Assembly (NCBI GenBank): GCA_029433475.1
Contig: JAQTIE010000014.1
Span: 1-32,520, forward strand
From: Neisseriaceae bacterium ESL0693
GTDB taxonomy: Bacteria; Pseudomonadota; Gammaproteobacteria; Burkholderiales; Neisseriaceae
Reading direction: 5' to 3'
DNA: 32,520 bases
How positions within the stretch are numbered: the first letter of the stretch is position 1; each line of letters starts with the position of its first letter. This document shows, piece after piece, positions 5,306 to 11,650 of the stretch. A program made the position numbers and the translations under genes. Under the pieces are notes generated by a model. That model did not search any database. It saw only the letters and a list, made by a program, of their open reading frames with translations, and had not been told where the DNA came from.

Positions 5306-7384
5306 TTGCGACTTTTTATTGCTGAAAAACCATCTGTAGCAAAAGCTATTGCTGAGGCGTTAGGTGTTACAAATAGAGGTGATGGCTACATTGAATGTGG
5401 AACAGACAAAATTACCTGGTGTTTTGGCCACATGTTCGAACAGGCCGAACCGGAAGAATACACACCAGAGGATGTACCTCGTAACAAGGCTGGTAAGAAA
5501 ATATGGCGTATTGAAGAACTACCCATTATTCCGGAAACATGGATTTTACGGGAAAAAAACGATGCTAAGAAGCAGCTTACTCTGATCGGCAAACTCATCA
5601 AGGAAGCAGAAGAAATCGTTAATGCTGGCGACCCTGATAGAGAAGGTCAGTTATTAGTCGATGAAGTGCTAAGCCACTTTAATGCTAACAAGCCAACGCG
5701 TCGTTTTTGGGTATCCTCACAAGACACGGTCACAGTCAAACGCGGCTTGTCCGCATTAAAAGAAAACAATTCTTATTGCGGCTGGGCAGATGCTGCTCGT
5801 GGACGTGCACGTGCAGACTGGCTAATTGGTATGAACTTATCCCGTGCCTATACTCTGAGAGCGCAGCGTGGTGGTTCTAAGGCTTTGTTGACCGTAGGCC
5901 GTGTGCAGACGCCGACACTGGCTATTGTTGTGAATCGTGATCGTGAAATAGAAGCGTTTAAACCTATTCCATATCATACAATACAAGCTGCTATCCAGCA
6001 TGAAGACAACATTTTTATGGCAACTTGGAAAGCTAAAGAAGATCAGATTGGCCTTGATAGCGATGGCCGCCTTGTAGATACTGCCGTAGCGGATGGCATA
6101 GTAGCCCATATCAAGGGTAAGCCAGGTAGCATTACTGAGTATAGACAAGAAGCAAAGAAGCAAAACCAACCTCTGGCGTTCTCACTATCCGATATTACAG
6201 TACTGGCCTCGAGCAAATACGGGTACAGCGCAGAGGATATATTAAAAACTTGCCAGTCGCTTTATGAAACGCACAAGCTAACCAGCTACCCAAGAACCGA
6301 TTGTGCTTATCTGCCTGAATCTCAGCTCGCAGATGCAACTAATGTGCTTGATGCCATCAAGCATGTAAATCCCGAGTTGGCCAGACTAGTCGATGCTGCT
6401 GATCCGTGCATTAAATCAAAGACCTGGAACGATTCCAAAATCACTGCGCATCATGGCATCGTACCGACTATGCATAAGGGTAGCAAGGCCAGCTTAAACG
6501 AGTACGAGCGTAATATCTATGAATTAATCGTACGAGCCTACATTGCACAGTTCTACCCCCTACACGAATATATGCAGACTGTTGTAAACGTGGATGTGGA
6601 CGGAGAGACGTTTTATGCCTGCGGCAATGTGGTAACGAAAAACGGCTGGCGTGACGTGTACGGCCAGACCGATGAGAACATCGACGATGGACAGGGCGCT
6701 GATGATGGTCAACGTTTGCCAGTAATGAAGCAAGGCGACAGTGTAACTTGTACTGATGCAACCCGAAAAGACGCCAAGACGAAGCCGCCGAAACGGTTCA
6801 CTGATGGCACACTTACCAGTGCAATGGAGAACATACACAAGTTTGTAAACAACCCTGAACACAAGAAGCTACTACGCGAAGGCGATGGTATAGGCACTTC
6901 TGCAACTCGTGCTTCAATCATTGCTGAATTGAAACGGCACGAATTTCTAGAAACCAAGGGAAAGCAAATTATTAGCACTACCTTAGGGCGTAGTGTGATT
7001 GACGCATTGCCAGAGGTAGTAAAAAGTCCAGTTCTTACCGCACTTTACGAACGTATGCTGAAAGGCATCGAACAAGGTACTGCTGAATTGGACGCATTTA
7101 TTACAAAACAAGAATCTTTTATTCGCGAACAGGTAGCAAAGGCTAATGATGGTGCAGTATCCATTGCTGGCGCTAAAGAAGCCATCCCAATATCTACCCT
7201 TTACAAGTGTAAAGTGTGTGGTACAGGACTTTCGCGACGACCGACCAAGAAAAAGGGGCATTTCTGGTGGGGTTGTTGCAACTATCCTGCCTGTAAACAA
7301 ACCTACCCCGACCTAAAAGGCCGTCCCGACTACAACAAGGGGCGCAACGGCTCCGCTAATTTAACCACCGAAAAGGAGAAATAA
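5306..7384 (+). CDS. traE: TraE, plasmid topoisomerase III
   Basis: This 692-residue type IA topoisomerase is of the TopB/TraE group (RP4 TraE 737). The Toprim domain starts [19 protein letters not shown] and has the acidic motif [12 protein letters not shown] near residue 105. The active-site tyrosine is Tyr328 in LTSYPRTD, the same number as in E. coli TopB. The C terminus holds a four-cysteine zinc ribbon (CKVCGTGLS...[13 protein letters not shown], about residues 634-665). The TTG start at 5306 has a strong AAGGAG (5294-5299) six bases upstream and gives the conserved N terminus. The enzyme probably unlinks plasmid DNA during transfer or replication. In RP4 traE is dispensable for transfer in common hosts. 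Confidence 0.95.
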
Positions 7385-7385
7385 C

Positions 7386-7733
7386 ATGACAGATCTAAAG
7401 AATCAAATTATTGAAGAAGTAGTGAAAGAAAAATTGATCGATGCACAGACGCCTGGTTTCGAAGCAGAGTTTGACCCTGATGAAGCTGAATTTGCTGGGG
7501 CGTTCGTGGAAGATGCTTTGAGCGAGGAGGATGCTCTCGAGGGTAGTGTCGATTTGAATGATGCTTTAGGTGAAGTACAGCCTTGTTTCTTGGATGATGA
7601 TAATGGTTATTCTGAAGTCCCCCCTTTCATTACAGTTATTCATGCTCACGAAATGTTTGATATAAAAGAAGATGAAACGTTACCAGAGGCTATTGCTAGA
7701 TACAATGCCGAAAATAATGATAAGGAGGGTTGA
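7386..7733 (+). CDS. Small acidic protein in the traD position
   Basis: This 115-residue, very acidic protein is rich in Glu and Asp, for example in FDPDEAEF and [11 protein letters not shown]. It sits between traE and traC where RP4 has traD, a small gene of unknown and dispensable function. A good AAGGAG site precedes the ATG. No motif was recognised, so the traD name rests on position only. Its acidity would fit a DNA-mimic or a partner of the large basic TraC, but nothing shows this. The stop lies two bases before the preferred traC start. Confidence 0.75.
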
Positions 7734-7735
7734 TT

Positions 7736-10700
7736 ATGGCAATGAGCAAGGATGAAGCAGAAAAGGTAACACGGTCGTTTTTAACCGATTACCCAGGTGC
7801 AGGTGTGTTGGCTTATAAATTGCGTAAAAATGTAAGTGAACTTTACGGGCCAAATTCTAAGATGGTACCGAAAAGTATGAAAGGCGCTTATCTTCCAAAT
7901 AAAACCATAGCATCTGATGGACAAACTTATCAAGGACGTGTGGATATTGTGTTGGAAAATGCCGATCACGCCAAGGATTTACTCATTACGTTGCGCCATG
8001 AAGTTATAGGGCACTATGGGATGAACACTTTTGCACCAGAGGAAAAACGACATTTGCTCGATGGCATAATCGCAGGCCGTGAAGAGCCAACGCTCAAGCC
8101 TCTATGGGAAAAAATTAATAAGCACTATGCTAATATATCGCTTGATATGCGCGCCGAAGAAGTCCTAGCCCTGCAATCTGAACGTGTAGAGCCACATCAA
8201 CACATCGGTAATGATATGGTACAACAACAAGCCCAGAAATCCTTTAACGAAACCTGCCTCTCTCGTGTGCGACCAATGGGAGTTGATGATCTTCAAAACA
8301 TAGTATGTATGGTCGCTCAAGGGCTTCATGACCGCACTAGGACACAGAAAACATTCCCAACAACCGATCCCCAATTCAGAAAGGATAACGTCAAGGATGA
8401 AGCAAAAAAGCCATTTCATGAGGTGGTGGCTGAAAAGCTAATCGAACAGCTTAAGGCCGGTACCGCGCCTTGGCAAATACCTTGGAACCCAGGGAGTCCT
8501 AATTCAATAATGCCGATGAATCCTACCACCGGCAAACGGTACAAAGGCATTAATGCCATTTACTTGATGGCTCAAGGGCGTGATGACTTACGTTGGATGA
8601 CATATAAGCAAGCGTCTGCTGTTGGTGCCCAAGTTCGAAAAGGCGAGAAAGGTACAACCGTTCAATATTGGAAATTCAACGAAGAACGAGACAAGTTGGA
8701 TGACCAGGGCCGACCAATGCGCGATGAGGAAGGCAAGAAGATCAAGGAAATAGTCATATTTGAAAGACCGCGTGTATTCTACTCAACTGTTTTCAATGGT
8801 GAGCAGATTGATGGTTTACCACCGCAGCAGATTAAACCAGCTGAAGAGCAGAAATGGAATATTATAGATCGGGCTGAAAATATCCTACAGGCTTCTGGTG
8901 CAAAGATTGTTCATACGGGTGTGGATCGAGCTTTTTATAGAGTTTCGCACGATTTGATTGCTCTACCAGAAAAAAGCCAATTCGATAGTGCAGACCGTTA
9001 CTATGCGACGGCATTGCATGAGCTAGGACATTGGACTGGGCATCCTTCGCGTCTCGATCGAGACCTTGCTCATCCATTTGGATCAAGAGGGTACGCTAAG
9101 GAAGAATTAAGAGCAGAGATTTCTTCAATGATGTTGGGTGATGAGCTGGGTATTGGCCATGACCCTGGGCAACATGCCGCGTATGTCGGTAGCTGGATCA
9201 AGGTGCTGCATGATGAACCAATGGAAATTTTTCGAGCTTCATCCGATGCCGAGAAAATCTTTGACTATGTGATGGCTTTTGAGCAGGTACAGATACAGCA
9301 GGAAGAAAAGGAGCTTACAGTGAAGGATATTCCAGCCGATAAAGAAATACAAAAAGATACTGAAACTCAGAGTGCGATGGCTATACCTACTCAGCAGAAA
9401 GGAGAACGTGAGTACATTAATGTACCCTTTAAGGAGAAAGACCAAGCCAAGAAACTTGGAGCACGATGGGATCGTCAACAGCAGTCATGGTATGTACCGG
9501 CAGGCATTGATATTGCACTGTTTACCAAATGGGCGAAGAGTACTGATACATCAGTTCCAGATGTAAGCCAGAATAATAATAAGCCTGCACAAGAGCGACA
9601 GTATCTTGCTGTACCTTATGCTGAACGTGGGGAAGCTAAGGCTGCTGGCGCCCTTTGGGATAAAACGGTTAAATCTTGGTATGTCGGTCCACGTGCTGAT
9701 ATGGCTAAGCTGGAGCGCTGGAACCCAGACAAGATAGCTATCCAGCAGGAACCTACTATGACACCAAGGGAGGAATTTGCGCAAGCCATGCTTAGCGCAG
9801 GTTTGTTCGTTGGCCATCGGTCAGATGGCGATCATCCAATCATGGATGGCAAGAAACATCGTGTGCCGGTGGAGGGGGGTAGGCCAGGAACATTAGATGG
9901 CTTCTATGTTGGTCACATGGACGGACATCCAGCTGGCCGAATTATCAACAACAAAACCGGTACCGATATTACTTGGAAGAGTAAGGGGTATGCCTTGAGT
10001 AGTGAAGAAAAAGCTAAGCTACAAGCCGAGGCTGCAACCAAGTTGGCCAAGCGTGAGCGTGATCAGGAGCAAGCACATGAAGTCGCAGCCGAGCGTGTTG
10101 GTCGTCAGATGGCCACGCTTACACCTATCAAACAGCCAACCCCATATCTGGAAAATAAAGGCATTAAACCTCAGATTGGTGTGCTAACGGACAAAGAAGG
10201 CCAAAAAACCTATATTCCTGTATTTGATACGAACGGCAAGCAGTGGGCAATGCAGTACATTCAAGAAGATGGTACCAAACGGTTTGCCAAGGATAGCAAG
10301 AAGGAAGGATGTTTTCATGCAGTGGGTGGTATGGATGCGTTGGCCACAGTACCAGCCATAGTTATTTCTGAAGGTTATGCTACAGCAGCGAGTAATTCTG
10401 AAGCACTAGGCTTTGCTACAGTGGCAGCTTTTGACTCAGGAAACTTGCCCCATGTTGCTCGTGCACTCCATGAAAAATACCCTGACAAACCTATCATTAT
10501 TGCTGGAGACGATGATAAAGCTCAGGAGCTAGAGCGCGGTTACAATCCTGGGAGGGCTAAAGCAGAAGAAGCAGCGAAGGCTGTAGGAGGCAAAGCCGTT
10601 TTCCCTATTTTTGCACCAGGGGAACAGGTCAGTAATCCTAAAGGCTTTACTGACTTTAATGATTTGGCCACTAAAAGCGAACTAGGTCGTGAAGGTGTTG

Positions 10701-10828
10701 AACGGCAGATTAATGCGGCTGTAAGTAAAGTACTGGTCGACGTTGACCAGCATAAAAAAGAGCAGAAGATTGTGCAAGAACAGAGACACGAAAAGAAACA
10801 GCGGCCGAAGCGGGTAGCTAGAATCTGA
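7736..10828 (+). CDS. traC: TraC-type primase fused to ArdC-like domains
   Basis: This 1,030-residue protein has several parts. An N-terminal zincin-like region carries HEVIGH at residues 88-93. An ArdC-like ssDNA-binding domain runs about 225-330, followed by its zincin partner with HELGH at 428-432. Two DUF5710-like repeats lie at about 558-600 and 621-663 (REYINVPFKEKDQAKKLGARWD, then RQYLAVPYAERGEAKAAGALWD). The C-terminal Toprim primase domain has SEGYATA near 880, AGDDD near 921 and FTDFNDLA near 970. RP4 TraC1 (1,061 residues) also has an ArdC-like N terminus. TraC primes DNA synthesis in the recipient and is itself transferred; the ArdC part may protect incoming DNA from restriction. 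The ATG at 7736 is chosen for AAGGAGG at 7722-7728; a TTG at 7730 also opens the frame. Confidence 0.9.
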   Translation: MAMSKDEAEKVTRSFLTDYPGAGVLAYKLRKNVSELYGPNSKMVPKSMKGAYLPNKTIASDGQTYQGRVDIVLENADHAKDLLITLRHEVIGHYGMNTFAPEEKRHLLDGIIAGREEPTLKPLWEKINKHYANISLDMRAEEVLALQSERVEPHQHIGNDMVQQQAQKSFNETCLSRVRPMGVDDLQNIVCMVAQGLHDRTRTQKTFPTTDPQFRKDNVKDEAKKPFHEVVAEKLIEQLKAGTAPWQIPWNPGSPNSIMPMNPTTGKRYKGINAIYLMAQGRDDLRWMTYKQASAVGAQVRKGEKGTTVQYWKFNEERDKLDDQGRPMRDEEGKKIKEIVIFERPRVFYSTVFNGEQIDGLPPQQIKPAEEQKWNIIDRAENILQASGAKIVHTGVDRAFYRVSHDLIALPEKSQFDSADRYYATALHELGHWTGHPSRLDRDLAHPFGSRGYAKEELRAEISSMMLGDELGIGHDPGQHAAYVGSWIKVLHDEPMEIFRASSDAEKIFDYVMAFEQVQIQQEEKELTVKDIPADKEIQKDTETQSAMAIPTQQKGEREYINVPFKEKDQAKKLGARWDRQQQSWYVPAGIDIALFTKWAKSTDTSVPDVSQNNNKPAQERQYLAVPYAERGEAKAAGALWDKTVKSWYVGPRADMAKLERWNPDKIAIQQEPTMTPREEFAQAMLSAGLFVGHRSDGDHPIMDGKKHRVPVEGGRPGTLDGFYVGHMDGHPAGRIINNKTGTDITWKSKGYALSSEEKAKLQAEAATKLAKRERDQEQAHEVAAERVGRQMATLTPIKQPTPYLENKGIKPQIGVLTDKEGQKTYIPVFDTNGKQWAMQYIQEDGTKRFAKDSKKEGCFHAVGGMDALATVPAIVISEGYATAASNSEALGFATVAAFDSGNLPHVARALHEKYPDKPIIIAGDDDKAQELERGYNPGRAKAEEAAKAVGGKAVFPIFAPGEQVSNPKGFTDFNDLATKSELGREGVERQINAAVSKVLVDVDQHKKEQKIVQEQRHEKKQRPKRVARI

Positions 10829-11014: not shown

Positions 11015-11650
11015 ATGAAAGTAGCACGTATTTATCTTCGCGTGAGTACTGAAGAACAAGACCTGACCCGTCAGGCAGCTATTGTCGAAAGTACAAAGGC
11101 AGCTGGCTTTTATGTGGCAGGTATCTATCGAGAGAAAGCATCTGGGGCACGCGCAGATCGAGCTGAAATGCTACGTATGATTGCCGATCTACAACCTGGT
11201 GAAGTAGTAGTTGCTGAGAAGATTGATCGCATTAGTCGCTTACCGTTACCAGAAGCAGAACGCCTAGTAGCATCAATTCGAGCTAAAGGAGCTAAGCTTG
11301 CTGTTCCTGGCGTAGTGGATTTGACCGAACTAGTGGCCGAAACGCAGGGAGTGGCCAAAGTTGTCCTGGAATCTGTGCAGGACATGCTTTTGAAACTAGC
11401 GTTACAGATTGCGCGTGATGATTACGAAGATCGACGGGAGCGGCAACGCCAAGGAGTAGAACTGGCAAAGCAAGCAGGTCGCTATGTAGGAAGAAAAGCT
11501 GACCCTATTATGCATGATCGAATTATTGCGCTACGCATTGCTGGCCACAGTATCTCAGAAACAGCTAAACTAGCTCAATGTAGCGAAAGTCAGGTTAAAC
11601 GAGTGTGGGCGATACATCGGGGCGCAAAAAGCCCGCACAAGGTAGCCTGA
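11015..11650 (+). CDS. Serine recombinase (resolvase/invertase family)
   Basis: This 211-residue small serine resolvase has a catalytic domain starting KVARIYLRVSTEEQDLTRQ, with nucleophile Ser11. The arginine-rich EKIDRISRLPL motif lies near residue 68. A C-terminal helix-turn-helix reads SISETAKLAQCSESQVKRVW. It most resembles plasmid ParA-type resolvases, which turn dimers back into monomers at a res site so that copies segregate. RP4 also has a resolvase, but within parCBA next to parDE. Here it stands alone between the tra and trb blocks, a usual cargo-insertion site in IncP-1 plasmids. Start is supported by AGGAG five bases upstream. An invertase role cannot be excluded, but no invertible segment was seen. 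Confidence 0.85.
   Translation: MKVARIYLRVSTEEQDLTRQAAIVESTKAAGFYVAGIYREKASGARADRAEMLRMIADLQPGEVVVAEKIDRISRLPLPEAERLVASIRAKGAKLAVPGVVDLTELVAETQGVAKVVLESVQDMLLKLALQIARDDYEDRRERQRQGVELAKQAGRYVGRKADPIMHDRIIALRIAGHSISETAKLAQCSESQVKRVWAIHRGAKSPHKVA

Follow-up and report, generated by a model that had tools for sequence, protein, structure and literature searches.

The conjugative primase gene traC occupies positions 7736 to 10828 of contig JAQTIE010000014.1 from Neisseriaceae bacterium ESL0693 (assembly GCA_029433475.1), a stretch of 32,520 nucleotides that was analysed whole and is referred to here as the window. Like its parts and the two genes before it that are located below, the gene lies on the forward strand. 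It starts with ATG behind an AAGGAGG ribosome-binding site read from the sequence (7722 to 7728), is open throughout without an internal stop, and encodes a polyvalent protein of 1,030 residues.

The traC gene, its domains and its plasmid

An earlier note made from the sequence alone had described in this protein two zincin motifs, two internal repeats and a Toprim primase, and Pfam searches together with the sequence bear out these assignments: HEVIGH at residues 88-93, HELGH at residues 428-432, and repeats at residues 558-600 and 621-663. Both zincin motifs are indeed present, but HEVIGH has three residues between the glutamate and the second histidine and is of HExxxH type, so that only HELGH is the HExxH motif that the note had seen in both places. 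The N-terminal domain, which we call zincin1 (residues 1-215, 7736 to 8380), has no Pfam or NCBIfam match and carries HEVIGH at 7997 to 8014 and EEVLA (residues 141-145) at 8156 to 8170. It is followed by an ArdcN domain of the single-strand-DNA-binding type (residues 228-348, 8417 to 8779; Pfam E 9e-32) and by MPTase-PolyVal, the second zincin (residues 379-503, 8870 to 9244; Pfam E 2e-47), in which HELGH lies at 9017 to 9031. Residues 225-513 match solved ArdC structures (6sna and 6i89, E about 1e-46), and H428, E429, H432 and E457 of the second zincin are invariant in 12 of 12 sequences. Two DUF5710 repeats come next, the first as the best Pfam stretch (9407 to 9535) and the second as a further one (9596 to 9724), and a Toprim_3 domain (residues 875-978, 10358 to 10669), found by Pfam and matching PHROG DNA primase families, places the primase C-terminal to the ArdC-type part in the same open reading frame (ORF). 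Judged by these domains, a single chain encoded by a conjugative element combines several unrelated activities, MPTase and ArdC-N among them, as in polyvalent proteins. A structure model of the full-length protein was too poor in quality for use. Elsewhere in the same genome (contig C23, 182774-187251; L005, L007) another ArdC gene stands by itself, close to a primase-type ORF, and is perhaps part of another mobile element.

The surroundings of the gene are those of a plasmid of incompatibility group P (IncP). The two contig ends (1-77 and 32444-32520) are identical over 77 bases and thus give a circle of 32,443 bp, and the contig is very probably a whole IncP-1 type plasmid with 44% GC. Positions 1-25000 align with the best IncP-type plasmids at 77.9% identity over 54%, and similarity searches of the window found homologues of the tra, trb, trfA and korB genes of IncP plasmids. 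A Pfam scan of ten ORFs recognised TrfA, KorA, KleE, KfrB, a resolvase and a MazF-type toxin with a MazE-like partner, the MazE match scoring just under the Pfam cut-off; no cargo gene was recognised among these ten. Within the tra operon of this TrfA-bearing IncP-1 backbone, traC is preceded by traE, a topoisomerase III gene (5306 to 7384), and by a gene in the traD position without a Pfam match (7386 to 7733). A resolvase gene (11015-11650) separates traC from the trb operon, at a site where R751 has integron and transposon genes. Third-position GC of traC is 0.39, whereas 12 relatives have values of 0.63-0.90. In the genome the Neisseria uptake word is not above control (7 occurrences, and 7 of the reversed word), which lends no support to a Neisseriaceae host.

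The closest relatives of the window TraC show 78.8% identity over 98% of the query, and in a primase tree of 23 rows it is the sister of pKJK172 TraC with support 98/96. By subgroup R751 is beta, pKJK172 epsilon, and pBS228 and PB11 alpha, the records themselves being typed IncP only. We used pBS228 and PB11 as stand-ins for RP4 among IncP-1-alpha plasmids, and the length and computed masses of their TraC presumably agree with those of RP4. The protein is identified as TraC by its domains, by their same order in relatives, by the pKJK172 sister placement and by the IncP-1 backbone. We consider it likely that a complete IncP-1 plasmid, closest to the pKJK172 group, encodes the window protein as its TraC conjugative primase, with a putative primase-only product and with an N-terminal zincin that may be an active metallopeptidase.

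Conservation and distribution of the N-terminal zincin

A lone HExxxH string would be weak evidence for a zincin, since four such strings, together with one HExxH, occur across the 35 genes of the window (9,969 residues). The domain is regarded as real because 25 of 25 homologues, with identities to the window protein that go down to 29%, keep its active-site residues H88, E89, H93 and E142 unchanged, and because the structure model of zincin1 is confident (predicted local distance difference test score 90.9) and of zincin type. G92 and E141 are likewise invariant in the 25, E142 is the predicted third metal ligand, and the spacing from the first histidine to the paired glutamates is 53 residues in every row where both patterns were found. 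Zincin1 therefore combines a HEXXXH motif and a later conserved glutamate with a zincin fold, the fold match being moderate. The ratio of nonsynonymous to synonymous substitution rates (dN/dS) of zincin1 is 0.10-0.35 in six of seven pairs, while the seventh gave no dS value; 4 of the 19 comparisons lack a dS value, all of them involving the window protein, and the zincin1 value for the window and pKJK172 rests on a dS of 1.9.

Pfam gave no match for residues 1-220, NCBIfam, searched with the window protein alone, gave none up to E 1, and a Pfam scan of the 25 zincin1 members matched five families, each in a single member only. A sequence search of solved structures with a zincin1 profile returned one chance-level match (E 0.34), and the matches in PHROGs were weak and fell within two very long phage families. 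The first-ranked Foldseek match was a weak one to MATCAP (7z5g; E 3e-3, template modelling score about 0.33). MATCAP/TMCP1 is a eukaryotic tubulin carboxypeptidase, a protease with HExxxH and EEG motifs, and no common function with zincin1 is implied. The VIA rows for zincin1 are catalytic domains, together with several in which the aligned part is the N-terminal domain of the anthrax lethal or edema factor. That N-terminal domain is not known to be proteolytic, so that the VIA match speaks for the fold and not for catalysis. Polyvalent proteins with HEXXXH and multiple zincins were described in 2017 (Iyer et al., PMC5512222), and in the text of that paper the HEXXXH-bearing MPTases share with zincin1 the motif, the zincin fold, the later conserved glutamate and the joining to ArdC and to LPD/MuF proteins; 12 clades are published for them. 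Our literature search turned up no paper that deals with the N-terminal domain of TraC of the R751 type, and the figures or supplement of PMC5512222 may describe the domain.

The conservation of the active site bears on whether zincin1 could be a fold that does not catalyse, such as a signal for docking or translocation that the coupling protein reads. Such a role would agree with its N-terminal position in the plasmid proteins examined and with the existence of zincin folds without an active site. It would also agree with the finding that ArdC E229A, changed at the metal-site glutamate, is still functional in conjugation to P. putida and that its protease activity is dispensable (PMC7213743), which makes ArdC a case of a polyvalent zincin that is not needed as a catalyst. 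However, a pure docking fold would not need the predicted metal and base residues to be invariant in all 25 homologues, and RP4 TraC1 is reported in the text of PMC5512222 as transferred although IncP-1-alpha TraC lacks zincin1. We therefore regard a docking role as unlikely, and, given the invariant active site, as less likely than either cleavage of its own chain or cleavage of a recipient protein.

Outside the window, tblastn found zincin1 in 238 of 72,556 plasmid records, and matches in 107 of 50,697 phage records, none of which covers more than 80% of its length. Among 101 genomes of the host's kin, its own included, 35 match TraC; among the matches listed, none outside the contig of the window covers residues 1-216. 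From the GTDB genome collection 43 zincin1 loci were obtained, which were classed with our own profiles and Pfam. In 26 of these, zincin1 heads a five-part TraC in one ORF (L028 being shortened by a frame break), and three more are broken or partial, namely a TraC with a stop (L030), a TraC at a contig end (L037) and a fragment (L057). The remaining loci join zincin1 to other partners or leave it alone: it stands as a single ORF in L039, is found with ArdC only in L046, and in L040 and L041, where ArdC is lacking, goes with DUF5710, a primase-like stretch and LPD7. Six loci fuse it to a zeta kinase (L047, L048, L050, L053, L054 and L055), three place it inside LPD38 giants, which are phage-type proteins (L049, L052 and L056), and L051 has it in a helicase/methylase-like protein with ResIII above and Eco57I below the Pfam cut-off. 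Two further zeta fusions were found on plasmids (L010 and L011). The fusion to zeta kinases and the presence in giant phage-type proteins are new but modest observations.

In another reading, which we think somewhat improbable taken alone, zincin1 would cut a recipient protein of defence or growth control and would be delivered at the head of either TraC or a zeta kinase. The retained catalytic residues are consistent with such an effector, as is the nature of the first-ranked Foldseek match, MATCAP, which is a protease. Of the zincin1-zeta loci examined, 8 of 8 have on the same strand, 1.2-4.9 kb upstream, an ORF resembling a topoisomerase, a frequency without a background control and a count that leaves out six further zeta-annotated plasmid rows; this arrangement loosely recalls the place of TraC behind TraE. 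Moreover, two of the zincin1-zeta plasmids are typed conjugative (MPF_I), and the fusion is possibly a conjugation-associated zeta protein. Several points weigh on the other side. The effector has no known target and delivery of the zeta fusions is conjectural, the topoisomerase match in three of the eight loci (L047, L048 and L053) is only an ORF of 1 kb at a distance of some 4.9 kb, and IncP-1-alpha plasmids are highly promiscuous even though they lack zincin1.

Candidate internal starts and the proposed fate of the protein

An internal start ahead of the ArdC domain appears to have been lost in the window. The other distinct TraC ORFs that bear zincin1, 22 of 22, all have an ATG at most 12 codons ahead of that domain, whereas the window has GTC (V219, 8390 to 8392); these 22 rows comprise many near-copies of R751 rather than 22 independent cases, and one of them, L028, is a broken gene. 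The ribosome-binding score of this first-junction ATG is modest, ranking 2-19 among 55-89 in-frame starts per gene. A second candidate start lies behind the second zincin, where AAGGAG and a GTG at residue 529 (9308 to 9322) could open a TraC2-like, primase-only product of 502 residues. This GTG at 9320 is the sole one of 57 in-frame starts with AGGAG, GGAGG or AAGGA at ribosome-binding distance, ranks third of the 57 by duplex energy, and aligns, behind its AAGGAG, with an ATG of pKJK172 behind AAAAGGAGCT. A high rank of this second start in relatives is partly to be expected, because the site sits there in a long linker (243-615 residues in 22 rows), and in rows without zincin1 its strength is mixed (strong in L008, L058 and L076; weak in L070, L071, L074, L075 and L077).

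The products predicted from such starts have computed masses of 158,949 (M1), 134,475 (M219, the start of the ArdC part) and 80,759 Da (M702) for R751 TraC, and of 116,721 (M1) and 81,647 Da (M316) for pBS228 TraC. The PB11 record annotates traC2 at the codon equivalent to M316 of pBS228. The product masses given by Miele et al. in 1991 for R751 and RP4 are reportedly within 1 Da of those computed. On the evidence of start codons, the window probably makes two forms of TraC where R751 makes at least three.

Shorter forms could also arise by cleavage. In this reading zincin1 and the ArdC zincin would cut TraC after delivery and free the primase from the DNA-bound ArdC part, and zincin1 adjoins unrelated partners as a processor acting in cis would. 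Miele et al. are also said to have seen a 152-kDa TraC band of R751 besides three products explained by start codons, which bears on such processing. The text of PMC5512222 has already put forward autoproteolysis for TraC1 as well as for other polyvalent proteins, but the same text has ArdC and RP4 TraC1 transferred as full-length chains, and the shorter forms in relatives are already explained by in-frame start codons. We think self-processing somewhat improbable taken alone, and about equally likely as a target in the recipient.

Returning to the window protein as an IncP-1 conjugative primase, we propose the following course of events. RP4 TraC1 is transferred into the recipient with the DNA strand (PMC5512222), and by homology the window TraC would be as well. 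Its ArdC-type part would bind the incoming single-stranded DNA and its Toprim part would prime the second strand, as published for relatives. GTG 9320 would start a further product that, like RP4 TraC2, holds the primase only, and priming could therefore be supplied without the zincin-ArdC half. Zincin1 would be an active metallopeptidase that works independently of the primase, since mobile elements join it to quite different partners; this is the least certain step, and the peptidase would most likely serve either to cleave its own chain once delivered or to cleave a protein of the recipient. The earlier note suggested that such a protein could be a package for anti-defence and priming that travels with the DNA; this is a hypothesis already in print for polyvalent proteins and TraC1 (PMC5512222), while antirestriction by TraC1 had not been investigated according to the text of PMC7213743. 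ArdC is required in the recipient and not in the donor (PMC7213743). Because ArdC E229A works and the recipient is where ArdC is needed, substitution of the HExxH residues would probably miss any ArdC effect.

A more speculative idea, which we hold to be rather improbable, is that zincin1 is a portable peptidase head on proteins sent with DNA (ArdC-primase, zeta kinase and the helicase/methylase-like protein) and has one common target in the recipient. Relatives would then make part of their ArdC-primase pool without zincin1 from the internal start, and every ArdC of the window plasmid would carry the peptidase, because the start before ArdC has been lost here.

Comparison with other TraC proteins and with ArdC

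The earlier note had regarded both the extra zincin and the repeated module as unusual, and neither view stands. R751, pKJK172, pAOVO02 and pAKD16 TraC, from records typed IncP, have zincin1 and both repeats, and both repeats also occur in the IncP-1-alpha TraC of pBS228 and PB11; an unusual architecture is thereby ruled out. R751 TraC (1,448 residues) and pKJK172 TraC (1,235 residues) contain zincin1 with HExxxH and EExxA, ArdcN, MPTase-PolyVal with HELGH, two DUF5710 and Toprim in the same order as the window protein, and the five-part order is also the same in pAOVO02 (1,580 residues) and pSM0227-02 (1,391 residues). Since these four have the same domains, the layout is ordinary for non-alpha IncP-1 TraC. 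The contrast with RP4 that the note had drawn for the first zincin does hold, as the TraC proteins of pBS228 and PB11 (1,061 residues) begin directly at the ArdC domain and otherwise have ArdcN, MPTase-PolyVal, two DUF5710 and Toprim as in the window. Two R751-like traC genes are interrupted, L030 by a stop inside the second zincin and L028 by a frame break in the primase, and on the Tardibacter plasmid pHSL3 the ArdC unit (L069:1269-2135) and a DUF5710-primase unit (L069:2465-5140) are neighbouring genes, a natural split of TraC. On the primase tree, with 14 rows that have zincin1 and 9 that lack it, the zincin1 label has to change 4 times (3-4 times in bootstraps); these 23 rows did not recover a single origin, and long branches leave several placements unsure.

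Neither are the repeats a local novelty. Repeat 1 and repeat 2 of the window TraC share 42% identity, whereas either of them reaches 72-93% with the repeat in the matching position of four other TraC proteins. As positional counterparts across these five proteins are more alike than the repeats within one protein, the duplication must predate the split of these plasmids, and a local origin was rejected on the same ground. The window copy is set apart by the linker that leads from its second zincin to the first DUF5710, with 49 residues against 243-615 in 22 other zincin1-bearing TraC proteins (243 in pKJK172 and 404 in R751). A stretch of about 190 residues that is common to 11 aligned relatives is missing from it, in an alignment made without L042, in which the pattern used did not find the repeats. 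Short linkers also occur in two distant TraC proteins without zincin1 (L075, 44 residues; L077, 48 residues). The window further differs from R751 and pKJK172 in its codon before ArdC, GTC against ATG in both, and in its third-position GC, 0.39 against 0.79 and 0.90 for the pKJK172/R751 pair. The in-frame starts of relatives at the borders of modules, the lost start of the window at the border of zincin1 and ArdC and its linker gap are new but modest observations.

In summary, the window TraC is mostly ordinary, and the part of interest is its little-studied N-terminal protease module. The active site of this module is conserved, neither Pfam nor NCBIfam has a model that matches it, and it recurs in zeta-kinase and phage-type proteins but is missing from the two TraC proteins of alpha type that were examined. 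ArdC of R388/pSa stands alone without primase, repeats or zincin1, whereas the window TraC has all three. The IncP-1-alpha TraC1/TraC2 pair has an internal start after the second zincin, for which the window has a candidate. Because zincin1 is absent from the alpha-type TraC proteins examined and present in others, alpha and non-alpha IncP-1 plasmids offer a natural comparison for its role.
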